From JBFLYE01 sp040756715 [NCBI: bacterium] (lineage in GTDB: Bacteria > UBA9089 > UBA9088), in assembly GCA_040756715.1 (NCBI GenBank), contig JBFLYE010000056.1, forward strand, positions 1 through 5,112: a stretch of DNA of 5,112 nucleotides. Direction: 5' to 3'. Below, in pieces: positions 130 through 5,112 of the stretch (position 1 is the stretch's first letter; each line of letters starts with the position of its first letter). Made by a program: the position numbers and the translations under genes. The notes under the pieces were generated by a model. It saw nothing but the letters and a program-made list of their open reading frames with translations, made no database searches and was not told the DNA's origin.

Positions 130-1440
130 TCATCCTTCCTTTCCCTGAAATATTTTCATCAAACCAGTCAATGTGCTTTGATAATCAGATTTCTCCCATA
201 TCCCCTGCTTTAAAAAATCCAAAACACTATCAATTTTCAATAATGCATAATCTATCTTTGGATTGCTTCCTTTCGCATATGCACCAATGTTTATCAGGTC
301 TTCTGCATCCTGAATTATAGCAAGAACCTCCCTTAATTGCCTTGCTGCCTGTTCCTGTTTTTCCTCGGTAATGTCAATCATAACCCTTGAGATGCTTTTT
401 AAAACATCAATAGCTGGGTAATGGTTTTTTTCAGCCAAATTCCTCGATAAAACAATATGCCCGTCAAGGATTGCCCGAATATTATCAGAGATTGGTTCAT
501 TCATATCATCAGCATCTACAAGGATGGTATATATCCCTGTGATTGTTCCTTTAGGCGATGTTCCAGACCTTTCCAAAAGCTTCGGCAATATTGCAAATAC
601 AGATGGCGTAAAACCCCTTGTGGCTGGCGGCTCCCCAATTGAAAGCCCAATTTCCCTCTGCGCCCTTGCAAACCTTGTTACAGAATCCATCATAAGCATA
701 ACATCCATCCCAAGGTCTCTAAAATATTCAGCAATGGCTGTAGCAACAAATGCAGCCCTTACCCTTGTAAGGGGAGGTTCATCCGATGTTGCAACCACCA
801 TAACAGACCTTTTAAGCCCTTCCTCCTGTAGGTCCTTCTCAATAAACTCCCTTACCTCCCTTCCCCTCTCACCAACCAAGGCAATAACATTTATATCAGA
901 TCTTGTAAATCTAGCAAGCATTCCTAGAAGGGTGCTTTTCCCAATTCCAGAGCCAGAGAATATCCCAAGTCTCTGTCCTCTACCAATGGTTAAACAAGAA
1001 TCAATTGCCCTTATTCCTGTTTCTAGTATCTTCTCTATCCTTGGTCTTTTTAATGGGTCAGGAGATTCTGCAAATATAGGATAAGAGGCATCTACAATAA
1101 TTGGATCTTTTCCATCAATCGGCATACCCATCCCATTTAATACCCTTCCCTTTAGCCCTTCTGAAACACCAACCCTTAAAGGCGAGCCGGTTGCGGAAAC
1201 CTCATCAAAAGCCTTTATTCCCTCTGTCTCTCCTATTGGCATCAATAGAATATTTTTATCCCTAAATCCAACAACCTCTGCCATAATCCTCTTATTTAAA
1301 GAGGAAATAAAGCATATCTCACCAATTGAAGCAGAAGGTCCCTCTGATTCTACAACAAGACCAATTACTTGTTTCACCCTTCCCTTTACTTGAATTGGGT
1401 CAATCCCTTCAATTCGTGCTTTAAGGCTTTGTGCACCCAT
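130..1440 (-). CDS. fliI: FliI, flagellum-specific ATPase of the type III export apparatus
   Basis: 436 residues, the usual FliI length. FliI is a cytoplasmic F1-beta-like ATPase that, as a hexamer with FliH and FliJ beneath the export gate, aids delivery of flagellar subunits. Residues 1-90 are the N-terminal beta-barrel domain. The P-loop SGSGIGKST is at 162-170, the catalytic-glutamate segment GERGREVREF starts at 190 (Glu191), and Walker B MLMMD ends at Asp252. PPATRGFTPSVFAILPKLLE follows at 271-290. The ATPase alpha/beta signature PAIDVLKSIS is at 342-351. EKQEQAARQLREVLA and the NIGAY helix region (385-389) are typical of the FliI C-terminal domain. GEPPATRGFTPSVF favours flagellar/T3SS ATPases over F1 subunits. 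The ATG at 1440 overlaps the end of fliH by 20 bp, suggesting translational coupling. The preceding GTGATAAAAG is at best a weak ribosome binding site. No motif is missing, so the enzyme should be active. Confidence 0.97.
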   Translation of the reverse strand: MGAQSLKARIEGIDPIQVKGRVKQVIGLVVESEGPSASIGEICFISSLNKRIMAEVVGFRDKNILLMPIGETEGIKAFDEVSATGSPLRVGVSEGLKGRVLNGMGMPIDGKDPIIVDASYPIFAESPDPLKRPRIEKILETGIRAIDSCLTIGRGQRLGIFSGSGIGKSTLLGMLARFTRSDINVIALVGERGREVREFIEKDLQEEGLKRSVMVVATSDEPPLTRVRAAFVATAIAEYFRDLGMDVMLMMDSVTRFARAQREIGLSIGEPPATRGFTPSVFAILPKLLERSGTSPKGTITGIYTILVDADDMNEPISDNIRAILDGHIVLSRNLAEKNHYPAIDVLKSISRVMIDITEEKQEQAARQLREVLAIIQDAEDLINIGAYAKGSNPKIDYALLKIDSVLDFLKQGIWEKSDYQSTLTGLMKIFQGKEG

Positions 1441-2134
1441 CTTTTATCACATTAAGCTGATTATCAATTGTAGCATCAATTATCCCAAAATCAAAATAAA
1501 TTTTGCATCCACCTGGCTCAATAGATGAGGAAGAAACAATATCTGTTTCTTTCAGAAATCCCTTTGCAATTTCTATATCATCTGGATTTAAAAGAAGCTT
1601 TATTTTGCTATTCTGTGCCTTTTTTATTGCCTCCTTTATATTTCTTAATACTATTTCCTTTTTAATTGATACCTCATCCTTTACTATCCTTTTTGCTATT
1701 AAAAAGGAGAGTTCAAGGACAATGTTTTCATCCATCTTCTTCAAGGAAGAATCATACAACGAATTTAGGGATGATAAAATTCCCTTTATTGATGCAATAA
1801 TCCTTGTTATTTCAGTTTCGCCCTTTCTTTTTCCCTCCTCAATTCCATGGGCAAATCCCTCCTTATATCCTTTATCTTTTATCTCATCTTGCTTTTTAAG
1901 GGCTTCATCCACAATAGACCTTGCCTTTTCTTCTGCCTCTTTTCTAACATATTCTTCTATATTTAAAAGGTTTTTTCTCTTTTCTGAAATCTCGTCCTCA
2001 AGTTTCTTTAGAATTTCATTATCCTGCTTTATTTTATTCTCCAGCCTTTCAATTAAGGTTCTTCCCTCTCCAATAAAAGCCTCTCTTGCTTTTATAACAA
2101 CCTCTCCATTTATAGATGGCGATTTATAAATCAT
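1421..2134 (-). CDS. fliH: FliH, flagellar export ATPase regulator/stator
   Basis: 237 residues. FliH dimers bind the N-terminus of FliI, restrain its ATPase and tether it to the C-ring; the family resembles the b/delta peripheral stalk of F-type ATPases. A long charged helix or coiled coil spans about 25-88 (rich in Lys/Glu, as in LENKIKQDNEILKKLEDEI). It is followed by the family hallmark, a GxxxG run with glycines at 89, 93, 97, 101 and 105 (GYKEGFAHGIEEGKRKG). The C-terminal globular domain (about 110-237) ends with the typical EPGGCKIYFDFGIIDATID segment (206-224), like SPGGCRIETDFGxIDA of other FliH proteins. The sequence is diverged, as usual for FliH, but the GxxxG run, the C-terminal motif and the position just before fliI agree. 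The ATG at 2134 has no Shine-Dalgarno sequence. A good promoter lies close upstream (2154-2182), so the transcript leader may be only about 13 nt. Confidence 0.93.
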   Translation of the reverse strand: MIYKSPSINGEVVIKAREAFIGEGRTLIERLENKIKQDNEILKKLEDEISEKRKNLLNIEEYVRKEAEEKARSIVDEALKKQDEIKDKGYKEGFAHGIEEGKRKGETEITRIIASIKGILSSLNSLYDSSLKKMDENIVLELSFLIAKRIVKDEVSIKKEIVLRNIKEAIKKAQNSKIKLLLNPDDIEIAKGFLKETDIVSSSSIEPGGCKIYFDFGIIDATIDNQLNVIKDGCTKP

Positions 2135-2275: not shown

Positions 2276-3295
2276 TCATTCTATTATCGCCTCTTTTCCC
2301 TTTCCTCCACGAGAGATCATAATTTCACCAGATTCTTCTAATTGCCTGATTGTGCCTATTATCTTCTGTTGGACCTCCTCTACCTCAGATAGCTTCTTTG
2401 GACCTAAATATGATATTTCCTCTTTAAGCATCTCCTGTGCCCTTTTTGGCATATTGCGAAATATAAGATTTTTTATTGTATCAGATGCTCCCTTAAGGGC
2501 TAATGCCAGATCCTTTGAATCAACCTCCCTTAAAACCCTTTGCACTGTTCTATCATCAAGCTTTGTAAGGTCATCAAAGGTAAACATTCTCTTCCTTACC
2601 TCTTCTGCCAATTCTGGATTTTCTTCTGAAATAGCGTCAATTATTGCTTTTTCTGTCTCCCTGTCGGATTCTTGAAGAATCTTTACCATAGAATCTACGC
2701 CATCTGTTTGAACAATATTTGCCTCTGCAGCACCTATCTCCTTTTCATATCTCTCTTTTAGGGTATCCTCTATTGATGAAACAAAATCTCCTGAAATGCT
2801 TTTCATTGATGCTATCCTTCTTGATACATCCTTTCTTATATCCTCAGCAAGGTTAAGGAGAACATCGGATGCCTTTGCGGCAGGAAGATTAGAAATAACA
2901 AAGGCTATTGTTTGAGGATGCTCATTTGAAAGAAAGCTTGCCAATCTAGATGGATCTGCCTTCTTCATAAAATCAAATGGTTTAATCTTTAATATATTCA
3001 CAGCTTTATCAATTGTCCTATTTGCACCCTCCTCTCCCATAGCCCTCTTTAAAACCTCTCTTGCATAATCAATCCCTCCCTTCAAGATAAATTCTTGGGC
3101 AAGGAGCAATTCCCTAAATTCAGCAATAATCTCCTTCTTTTGCACAGGTTCAATTTTTGGAAGCTTTGCTATTTCAAGGGTAAGTTGGTCTATTTCTTTC
3201 TCGTCTAAATGTTTAAATACAGGCCCTGCAATATCAGAACCCAATGCCATAAGAAGCATTGCTGCCTTTTGTGGCCCTGTTGCTTTAATAGCCAT
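2276..3295 (-). CDS. fliG: FliG, flagellar motor switch/rotor protein
   Basis: 339 residues from the ATG at 3295, matching the family length. FliG sits between the MS ring (FliF) and FliM of the C-ring, and its C-terminal helix meets the stator. The N-terminal domain (about 1-100) begins TGPQKAAMLLMALGSDIAG, the usual FliG opening that binds FliF. The middle domain carries the EHPQT motif (125-129), which contacts FliM. The C-terminal domain has MFTFDDL (237-243) and the torque helix. Charges equivalent to E. coli K264, R281, D288, D289 and R297 are kept as K268, R285, E292, E293 and K301. I reject a longer reading from a TTG at 3331, because its 12 extra residues only translate a 7-bp repeat array. 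The ATG has no Shine-Dalgarno sequence (CTTATT precedes it). The gene follows a small FliG-N-like ORF by 53 bp. Confidence 0.97.
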   Translation of the reverse strand: MAIKATGPQKAAMLLMALGSDIAGPVFKHLDEKEIDQLTLEIAKLPKIEPVQKKEIIAEFRELLLAQEFILKGGIDYAREVLKRAMGEEGANRTIDKAVNILKIKPFDFMKKADPSRLASFLSNEHPQTIAFVISNLPAAKASDVLLNLAEDIRKDVSRRIASMKSISGDFVSSIEDTLKERYEKEIGAAEANIVQTDGVDSMVKILQESDRETEKAIIDAISEENPELAEEVRKRMFTFDDLTKLDDRTVQRVLREVDSKDLALALKGASDTIKNLIFRNMPKRAQEMLKEEISYLGPKKLSEVEEVQQKIIGTIRQLEESGEIMISRGGKGKEAIIE

Positions 3296-3301
3296 AATAA
3301 G

Positions 3302-3334
3302 AAAATGCAAAATGCAAAATGCAAAATGCAAAAT
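3302..3334. repeat. AAAATGC heptanucleotide tandem array upstream of fliG
   Basis: Four perfect plus-strand copies of AAAATGC (3302-3308, 3309-3315, 3316-3322, 3323-3329) plus five bases of a fifth (3330-3334). The array fills most of the 53-bp gap between the small ORF and fliG and ends 6 bp before the fliG ATG, so it occupies the place where a ribosome binding site would be. Translated on the minus strand it gives the artefactual extension HFAFCILHF upstream of FliG. Confidence 0.95.
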
Positions 3335-3348
3335 AAAATAGATAAATT

Positions 3349-3528
3349 TTAAACATTTTCCTCTCCTACAAGAGATAGAATAAAATTTGTTTTTTCTTCG
3401 GAAACAAGACTTGCACCCTCTTTTATCTTTATCTTCTCATCGCTTGTGAGATAGCTCATAACCTCTCTTGCTTCCTCTTCTTCTAAAGAGGATAAAAGAA
3501 CACAAGCCTTTTTAAGCCCCTCTTTCAT
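3349..3528 (-). CDS. Small protein resembling the FliG N-terminal domain
   Basis: 59 residues from the ATG at 3528 (MKEGLKKACVLLSSLEEEEA...). I do not recognise a named family of this size, but residues 7-31 align without gaps to FliG residues 10-34 from the next gene. Identities are K7, A8, L11, L12, L15, A20, V23, L27 and E31 (9 of 25), with hydrophobic positions also kept. The tail LVSEEKTNFILSL resembles the following FliG helix region. FliG's middle and C-terminal domains are absent. No signal peptide or membrane segment is visible, so it is probably cytoplasmic, and it is acidic (about 13 Asp/Glu against 8 Lys/Arg). It lies 39 bp after fliF and 53 bp before fliG. By inference it may bind the FliF C-terminus. 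It could alternatively be a decayed duplicate of the fliG 5' end. A longer TTG start at 3555 only adds translated repeats (RNAECGII) and is rejected. The repeat-derived GGAAT before the ATG might serve as a weak ribosome binding site. Confidence 0.68.
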   Translation of the reverse strand: MKEGLKKACVLLSSLEEEEAREVMSYLTSDEKIKIKEGASLVSEEKTNFILSLVGEENV

Positions 3529-3533
3529 TATAA

Positions 3534-3561
3534 TTCCGCATTCCGCATTCCGCAATCCGCA
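3534..3561. repeat. TTCCGCA heptanucleotide tandem array between fliF and the small ORF
   Basis: Three perfect plus-strand copies of TTCCGCA (3534-3540, 3541-3547, 3548-3554) and one variant ATCCGCA (3555-3561). On the minus strand the unit is TGCGGAA, equivalent by rotation to GGAATGC, which shares AATGC with the AAAATGC array upstream of fliG. It occupies 28 of the 39 bp between the fliF stop and the ATG of the small ORF. Its G+C content is clearly higher than that of its surroundings. Confidence 0.95.
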
Positions 3562-3567
3562 TTTGTT

Positions 3568-5112
3568 TTATTCTTCTTCAGAAAGCCAATCTCTTATAAG
3601 CTTGGCAACAAGGCTTGGTTTCCTCTTTGCGGTTTCTAATGCTTGGATTTCCTCTTCAGAGAGGGATATTCCCTCTGCTGCTAATTGGGTTGCAAATGTC
3701 GGAAGCTCCTTTTCTGCTTTTGCTACCTCTGGCTTTATCTCTTTTTTCATAAATTGCCTCATTATTGAAAGCACAATTAGACCCATTACAATGAGAAAAA
3801 TAAGACCAGCACCGCCGATTCCTGCTGTAGTTATTGTTTTTCTTGTTTTCTCTTTCTTTTCCCTTTCTGTCTCAAGCCATTCCTGGCTTCTATCAAATTG
3901 GACATTCTCAACCTCAACAAGGTATTCCCTCTCTAGGTATTCCTTCCCTTTTTCAGCACCAATAGCTGCCCAGACAAGCTTTTTAAATTTTTCCATCTCA
4001 TCATTTGTCCTTGGCTGATATATAGGATTTCCCTTTTCATCCCTTTTTATTTGACCCTTCTCATCTAGCTCATATTTTCCATCTACAAAGACTCCCACAG
4101 ATATTTTTGAAATGGATGGCGCCTTAACAAGGCTTGTTTCCTCCTTATCAGCATAATAATTAACACGGGATTCCTTTTTGTTATATTCAACAGGGCCTTG
4201 TGTCTTTGCTATCTCTTTATAACCAGGGATTTGAGATTCAAGGCCTGGCTGTCCTTCTGGTTTTACCCCTTCTCCTTTAAATGCCTCATCCACCTTTTCT
4301 TCACTTATCTTTAATTGCTCAAAACCTGGCATTGAATACTTCTCAAGCCTCGTTTCCTTTCTATCAAAGTTCATTTCACACTTTACAATAACCTCTACCT
4401 TATCATATCCAATAACCCTTCCTAGCCTATCCCTTATCCTCCTTTCAAGGCTTTTTCTCTCCTCCTCCTGTAGAGCAAGCTGCTTTGAGGTTATTGCTTC
4501 TTGTTTTTCTTCGCCTATATCCTCTGAGAGAATCCTACCCCTATTATCAACCACTGTGATATTATTAGGCTTTAGCCCCTCAACCGCAAATGAAACAAGG
4601 TTCATTATCCCAGCAACCTGCTCTTTATCAATACTAGCATAGGGAGCCATCGTTAGCTTAATAGAGGCAGTAACCGGTTTTTCTTCCTCAATAAATAGCT
4701 TTTTCTCTGGAAGGACAAGGAGAACCCTTGCATCTTTTATGCCTTCAATAGATTCTATGGTTCTTTCAAGCTCACCTTGAATGGCTCTTAAATAGTTTAT
4801 CCTCCTTTCATAATCTGTCATGGTAAGCTTTGTTGTATCAAAAAGCTCCCATCCCTTTATCCCTCCGGTGGGTGCAAGTTTTCCTGAGGCAAGTTTAAGC
4901 CTTAATTTGTCCCTGTCAGCTATAGGAACCTTGATGGTTGTTCCCTCTAATTTATATGGTTGTTTCCATTCCTCAAACTTGCTTGTGATTCTTCCTGCCT
5001 CCTCAGGGGATATATTTGTATATAAATCAGCATATTCTGCCCTGGTTATGTATGAAATAAGAAAAAGAAGGAGGATAAAGGAAAGCAATCCACCGCCTAC
5101 AATGGTAATTTT
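3568..5112 (-). CDS. fliF: FliF, flagellar MS-ring protein (5' end cut by window edge)
   Basis: 514 residues are visible; the frame is open to the right edge, so the true start lies outside. A TTG at 5088 inside the first membrane segment is not the start. FliF oligomerises in the inner membrane into the MS ring, the platform for rotor and export gate. Numbered from the first full codon (AAA at 5112): membrane helix 1 at about 1-22 (KITIVGGGLLSFILL); first ring-building motif from about 27 (EYADLYTNISPEEAGRI); YscJ/FliF-type second ring-building motif at about 100-205 (RINYLRAIQGELERTIESIE, DARVLLVLPEK); third motif at about 230-345 (GYDKVEVIVKCEMNFD, SRVNYYADKEE, ISVGVFVDG); membrane helix 2 at about 427-451 (GIGGAGLIFLIVMGLIVLSI). 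The C-terminal tail KPSLVAKLIRDWLSEEE (498-514) is the conserved FliG-binding segment. Roughly the first 20-30 residues should be missing. It heads the visible part of the operon. Confidence 0.97.
   Translation of the reverse strand, partial: KITIVGGGLLSFILLLFLISYITRAEYADLYTNISPEEAGRITSKFEEWKQPYKLEGTTIKVPIADRDKLRLKLASGKLAPTGGIKGWELFDTTKLTMTDYERRINYLRAIQGELERTIESIEGIKDARVLLVLPEKKLFIEEEKPVTASIKLTMAPYASIDKEQVAGIMNLVSFAVEGLKPNNITVVDNRGRILSEDIGEEKQEAITSKQLALQEEERKSLERRIRDRLGRVIGYDKVEVIVKCEMNFDRKETRLEKYSMPGFEQLKISEEKVDEAFKGEGVKPEGQPGLESQIPGYKEIAKTQGPVEYNKKESRVNYYADKEETSLVKAPSISKISVGVFVDGKYELDEKGQIKRDEKGNPIYQPRTNDEMEKFKKLVWAAIGAEKGKEYLEREYLVEVENVQFDRSQEWLETEREKKEKTRKTITTAGIGGAGLIFLIVMGLIVLSIMRQFMKKEIKPEVAKAEKELPTFATQLAAEGISLSEEEIQALETAKRKPSLVAKLIRDWLSEEE

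Follow-up and report, generated by a model that had tools for sequence, protein, structure and literature searches.

The window analysed here is the whole stretch of 5,112 nucleotides at positions 1 to 5,112 of contig JBFLYE010000056.1 from the bacterium JBFLYE01 sp040756715 (assembly GCA_040756715.1). It contains five genes, all on the minus strand: fliF (3568..5112, with its 5' end beyond the window), a 59-codon open reading frame followed by its stop (ORF; 3349..3528), fliG (2276..3295), a gene in the fliH position between fliG and fliI (1421..2134) and a fliI-like flagellar ATPase gene (130..1440). The neighbouring FliG (P0002) is a complete N-M-C protein, with FliG_N, FliG_M and FliG_C found in Pfam and a TIGR00207 score of 354.7 bits. 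The other names are tentative and rest on gene position, supplemented by sequence motifs for the fliI-like gene. The ORF between fliF and fliG, pointed out in a sequence-only reading as a FliG_N-like microprotein, was confirmed on the minus strand with an ATG start and an intact frame. It was found to encode a free-standing FliG-D1-like protein (P0001), as judged by the ORF call, the FliG_N profile matches and a position conserved in 5/5 genomes of the order. The C-terminal tail of FliF, KPSLVAKLIRDWLSEEE, is intact in the window, as that reading had stated. Arrays of seven-base units lie on both sides of the ORF, with 4.7 copies of AAAATGC towards fliG (3302..3334) and 4.4 copies of ATTCCGC towards fliF (3533..3563), no strand being applicable to either; some relatives likewise have other short repeats between fliF and fliG (e.g. 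L023 and L025). Starting at the in-frame TTG at position 3555 would lengthen the protein by nine residues encoded by the tandem repeat, but the alignment with the homologues begins at the ATG and not at the upstream TTG.

The likeness to FliG was first described as 9 identities in 25 ungapped positions, between residues 7–31 of the ORF protein and residues 10–34 of the neighbouring FliG. The identities are present, and by themselves they are weak evidence: when the 25-residue comparison was allowed to slide over the whole of FliG, at least 9/25 was reached by 86 of 400 shuffled ORF proteins, against 1 of 20000 when the N-to-N register was held fixed. BLASTP against the neighbouring FliG returned a 7-residue match alone (E 4.7), and profile comparison was therefore used instead; it is the profiles that carry the relationship. 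The top Pfam match of the window protein was FliG_N (PF14842), with an E value of 9.4e-5 and 23.4 bits, 1.6 bits under the curated cut-off of 25 bits. With 25.4 bits in a genome-wide search, the homologue in G002 passed that cut-off, and three of the five family members matched FliG_N in Pfam at E ≤ 1 (best E 2.5e-6), G000 being the genome of the window and G001–G004 the four other genomes of its order that were compared. With hhalign, the ORF family matched FliG_N at 91.6% (E 8e-7, columns 3–40), followed by FliG_M at 23.5% and FliG_C at 1%. The profile comparison proposed earlier thus placed the family with FliG_N, the window protein itself falling just short in Pfam, and the earlier remark that the ORF holds nothing of the other FliG domains was borne out by Pfam and hhalign alike. 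No NCBIfam match was obtained for the ORF, which did not reach the FliG model TIGR00207 (cut-off 226.7 bits). Against a profile of 24 FliG_N sequences (24 of the 30 FliG loci, leaving out L037, whose match contains TGA, and the more distant L041–L045), three members beat every scored shuffle (0/3980, 0/3916 and 0/3978 of the 4000 made per member), and for the remaining two 7 and 15 shuffles reached the real score. A five-member profile searched against the sequences of the PDB ranked the FliG_N of T. maritima (5tdy) first, with E values of 0.0012 for the whole sequence and 0.067 for the best stretch alone, followed by MgtE (E 0.21). The residues G4, K7, L15, L27 and E31, invariant in 5/5 ORF proteins, correspond to G7, K10, L18, L30 and E34 of FliG, which are strongly conserved there. 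By profile, the ORF family is related to FliG_N.

The AlphaFold2 (AF2) model of the ORF protein, with a predicted local distance difference test score (pLDDT) of 90 and a predicted template modelling score (pTM) of 0.73, comprised four helices (residues 2–13, 17–25, 29–39 and 44–54). In VIA-align, its best row was 5tdy_D, the FliF-bound FliG_N (Z 5.5, root-mean-square deviation 2.7 over 45 residues, model residues 1–45 on chain residues 5–49), with rows for MgtE cytosolic domains, 9a67, the C-ring FliG 8wiw and one clathrin chain within 1 Z unit. In the literature, D1 is given as FliG residues 1–67, around which FliF_C wraps, with D2 completing the D1 of the next subunit (PMC11087270), and helices 5–6 of FliG_N are described as packing onto helices 2–3 of the neighbour (PMC11528121). 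From the four-helix model and these domain limits, the ORF corresponds to D1 alone; the full FliG_N domain (D1 and D2, about 100 residues) is not contained in its 59 residues. The ORF protein is thus equivalent to the FliG subdomain D1, with D2, M and C absent. The description of a FliG_N-like protein holds in that the protein is free-standing, conserved, under selection and related to FliG_N, and can be narrowed to D1, D2 being absent. Shared with the D1 of FliG_N (PF14842, 5tdy) are the four helices (in the model), the first 35–40 residues, the G/K/L/L/E invariants and the fliF neighbourhood, whereas the ORF protein differs in standing free at 59 residues without D2, M or C and in having lost G19 in 5/5 members and kept E41 in 2/5. 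Compared with FliG itself (TIGR00207), encoded next door and sharing D1, the ORF protein has one subdomain, whereas FliG has five and drives torque.

Homologues were found between fliF and fliG in 4/4 of the other genomes of the order, which represent two families and three genera, with identities of 83, 51, 38 and 36%; the presence of the ORF at the same place in relatives, which had been put forward as a check, was thereby established. Their alignment had no internal gap and 13 invariant columns including the start, and the frame was open in 5/5 genomes. In G001 the ATG of the ORF overlaps the fliF stop (ATGA); in G002 a GTG start shares one base with the fliF stop (an ATG slightly upstream is a possible alternative), and the end of the ORF overlaps the fliG start, as it does in G004. 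The ORF stop of G003 lies four bases ahead of the fliG ATG, with about 400 bases between ORF and fliF. The overlaps and tight spacing indicate operon-style coupling. The same-genus G001 lacks the array on the fliF side, the genes overlapping instead. The ratio of nonsynonymous to synonymous substitution rates (dN/dS), estimated by NG86, was 0.30 for the ORF in the pair G000/G001 and 0.205 in G004/G003, with fliG values of 0.116 and 0.101, respectively. In neutral simulations under four transition biases, P ranged from 0.0025 to 0.023 for G000/G001 and from 5e-5 to 0.00125 for G004/G003. Together, the ratios and the simulation show an ORF under selection that is less strict than that on fliG, and the frame and dN/dS check proposed earlier came out in favour of the gene. 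The ORF is a real conserved flagellar gene under purifying selection.

The plainer alternative raised by the sequence-only reading, that part of fliG was once duplicated and left a relic, here considered as one with little or no function, would agree with the small size, with a likeness confined to FliG_N and with the flanking repeats; G005, too, has a FliG_N-only ORF ahead of fliG. It is opposed by the frame kept open in five genomes of two families, by purifying selection in two independent pairs, by starts or stops that in three genomes overlap fliF or fliG and by the absence of any closer likeness to the FliG of the order itself than to others. The window protein scored 7.2 bits with a FliG_N profile of the order's own five FliGs and 14.4 bits with one of other FliGs; the ORFs scored lower with the own-order profile, a difference for which the narrower profile accounts in part. 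Nothing points to recent copying of the neighbouring fliG, and judging from these scores the gene is probably old. A recent relic was not supported by these comparisons, and the relic explanation in general is largely refuted and considered improbable. Stop-codon readthrough of fliF into a FliF-FliG_D1 fusion would suit G000 and G004, where the ORF lies in the fliF frame past one stop codon, but the frames differ in G001 and G002, fliF and the ORF of G003 are several stops and some 400 bases apart, and each of the five ORFs has its own start codon. The frames in G001, G002 and G003 exclude readthrough as the general case, leaving it the faintest of chances.

Kinship with the E-ring protein (MotE/FlgY/FlbB/YlxF, with MgtE_N, PF03448), in shortened form, instead of with FliG_N was also considered, since the FliF-YlxF model 9a67 was the top Foldseek row (E 0.31), one of the five ORF members matched MgtE_N (E 0.0015; the family was absent among the matches of the window protein) and the MgtE rows in VIA-align lay less than 1 Z unit from the FliG_N row. 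The E-ring protein, reported around the ring of FliF (PMC13023049), resembles the ORF protein in its armadillo-like helical domain and its place in the flagellar operon. It differs in containing a coiled coil as well as a membrane helix or signal, and its local representative is related to FliG_M instead of D1 and is encoded here by a gene of its own. In G001, G002 and G004, genes of this type (MotE/FlgY/YlxF-like) occur downstream in the same fli operon (L077:3538-4116, L078:1125-1703 and, on the minus strand, L079:2075-2656), encoding proteins of 192–193 residues with an N-terminal membrane helix, an MgtE_N/FliG_M-like end and, by eye, a coiled coil. No match to this protein was found in G000 and G003, where the contigs end before the expected place. 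In hhalign, the ORF family matched the local E-ring-type protein at 0.7%, against 89% for FliG_M. The ORF proteins have no strongly hydrophobic segment (maximum Kyte-Doolittle value over 19 residues ≤ 0.63 in 5/5) and, at 55–59 residues as scanned, are too short for a membrane helix, a coiled coil and a domain. The 59-residue ORF is not the E-ring protein, and descent from a shortened one is regarded as very unlikely. A FliK-like gene follows the E-ring-type gene in L077.

Across the phylum, FliG_N matches were found in 17 of 19 genomes and the 59-residue gene in five of those 17, all of one order, and in 10/10 other genomes of the phylum whose fliF end lies on the locus the fliF-fliG spacer held no comparable ORF. 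The five-member profile recovered the five genes from the 19 genomes at E 8e-28 or better. Its top three rows outside the order were FliG N-termini, in G014 and G018 (E 0.005) and G008 (E 0.023), followed by the FliG start of G015 (E 0.09) and a FliG_N-only ORF of G005 (E 0.24); other weak rows, with E values of 0.03–0.8, lay elsewhere. Over 386 genomes, the same profile gave 11 matches at E ≤ 0.001, namely the five genes of the order and six weak others, these from outside the phylum. Those in G097, G229 and G174 are FliG N-termini also matched by PF14842; the match in G150 is a 116-residue ORF in surroundings that, by eye, seem non-flagellar, and is not the same gene, and that in G270 lies within an 1188-residue frame. 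Nor is the match in G182 (L067:838-1659, minus strand) the same gene, as it is the start of a 273-residue protein in which a FliG_N-like beginning (E 0.0039, profile positions 2–62, under the cut-off) is joined to an Rce1-like membrane domain of the CAAX-protease type. When the FliG_N model was run over 118 genomes, the matched frames shorter than 200 residues were the G002 gene and the G005 ORF only, and over 386 genomes one further such frame stood among the matches listed, in G355 at a contig edge. A single peptide pattern searched in GTDB 220 contigs gave 1 locus, on contig DNCM01000143.1 of the metagenome-assembled genome UBA9088, which we take to be placed in GTDB phylum UBA9089.

The G005 ORF (L037:144-533, plus strand) belongs to another family of the phylum and is intact, with 129 residues, a FliG_N score of 96.8 bits and 36% identity to the FliG encoded directly downstream. 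Like the 59-residue protein it has FliG_N without M and C and lies immediately before fliG; it differs in having D1, D2 and a short tail, and was seen in one genome only, where the contig ends within its upstream flank. It may represent the same design in a longer form.

The frame of fliF leads on into the ORF past one TAA in the window and past one TGA in L004, and the FliF tail and the ORF could therefore be modelled as a single chain, from an alignment holding 3 of 22 extracted FliF tails, three small proteins and two read-through rows. In the resulting AF2 model (pTM 0.65), the tail helices had a pLDDT of about 78 and the ORF domain mostly of 83–89, with a disordered linker. The model matched the N domain of MgtE at Z 7.0 and FliG around residues 96–169 at Z 5.4–6.4, and this MgtE/FliG-like shape is the one reported for the FliF-FliG_N co-fold (PMC6079021). 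Foldseek gave no convincing match to the tethered model, and no match at E ≤ 0.001 to either AF2 model. Since D1 helices 1–4, the acceptor part, are kept and helices 5–6, the D2 part donated to the D1 of a neighbour, are absent, a cap, holder or spacer is proposed. The protein would bind the C-terminal tails of FliF in place of the D1 of FliG and, once there, would recruit no torque-generating FliG domains. It might thus serve as a cap or as a temporary holder (assembly chaperone) of FliF tails or, alternatively, as a spacer at which the D1-D2 chain of FliG stops or is interrupted. We infer an old, order-specific gene for a D1-like protein that binds FliF C-tails as cap, chaperone or ring spacer, and give this reading about an even chance.

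Several results weigh against it. At E ≤ 1, Pfam returned no FliG_N match for two of the five members, and one member matched the unrelated BET family at E 7.4e-5, indicating that a short charged helical protein can score this well by chance. Z values below 6 in VIA-align are common among helical folds, making the structural match supportive and no proof; all Foldseek rows for the ORF model had E values above 0.3 (9a67 first at 0.31, then MgtE and 5tdy), and the sequence similarity fades past about residue 40, so that helix 4 is D1-like by the model alone. The ORF had a dN/dS exceeding the fliG value by a factor of two to three, and its YN00 estimates were 0.549 (G000/G001) and 0.315 (G004/G003). 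The tethered model matched the unrelated helical solenoid ArpC5 of Arp2/3 as well or better (Z 7.4), and, run with the native tail only, it is compatible with binding to the FliF tail and no proof of it. The FliG invariant G19 is kept in 0/5 ORF proteins and E41 in 2/5, and the FliF-binding face may therefore have changed. A protein that kept the D1 fold, lost FliF binding and acts elsewhere in the flagellar system, e.g., on the D2 or M domain of FliG, on FliH or on a polar-localisation factor, would account for these losses, for helix 3–4 positions unlike FliG and for the faster drift of the ORF; nevertheless, the ORF always adjoins fliF and fliG in the five genomes, and the five shared invariants are those of FliG_N itself. 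Loss of binding is accordingly a possible but less favoured explanation than a protein that holds FliF tails.

Within the reading of a FliF-tail-binding protein, a more specific role can be imagined and is considered doubtful: a 'dummy FliG', that is, a D1-only rotor part at some inner-ring positions that would accept the D2 of a neighbour, donate none and carry no torque domain, and so might set the ring closure or the FliF:FliG ratio as a symmetry adaptor, with the G005 ORF as its longer version. How the FliF ring fixes the number of FliG and how a mismatch of ring symmetry is tolerated are open matters in motor assembly; Salmonella particles are reported with a 33-mer MS ring and a 34-mer C ring (PMC11087270). 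A FliG reduced by nature to D1 would serve as a probe already at hand, in which binding to FliF is separated from torque and from the building of the FliG ring. The 59-residue protein would also add to the known flagellar components, possibly as an extra rotor part, from a lineage that is uncultured. In the open-licence literature searched, as judged by titles and the beginnings of abstracts, no description of a free-standing FliG_N protein, and no prior description of such a D1-only flagellar gene, was found. Elsewhere in these genomes, FliM was found in four of the five members of the order, the fifth being 78% complete, and in G003 (contig C199; L080, 2041-2989) a second copy of the fliG end and the fliH-position gene lies downstream of the intact pair, either a partial tandem duplication or an assembly artefact.
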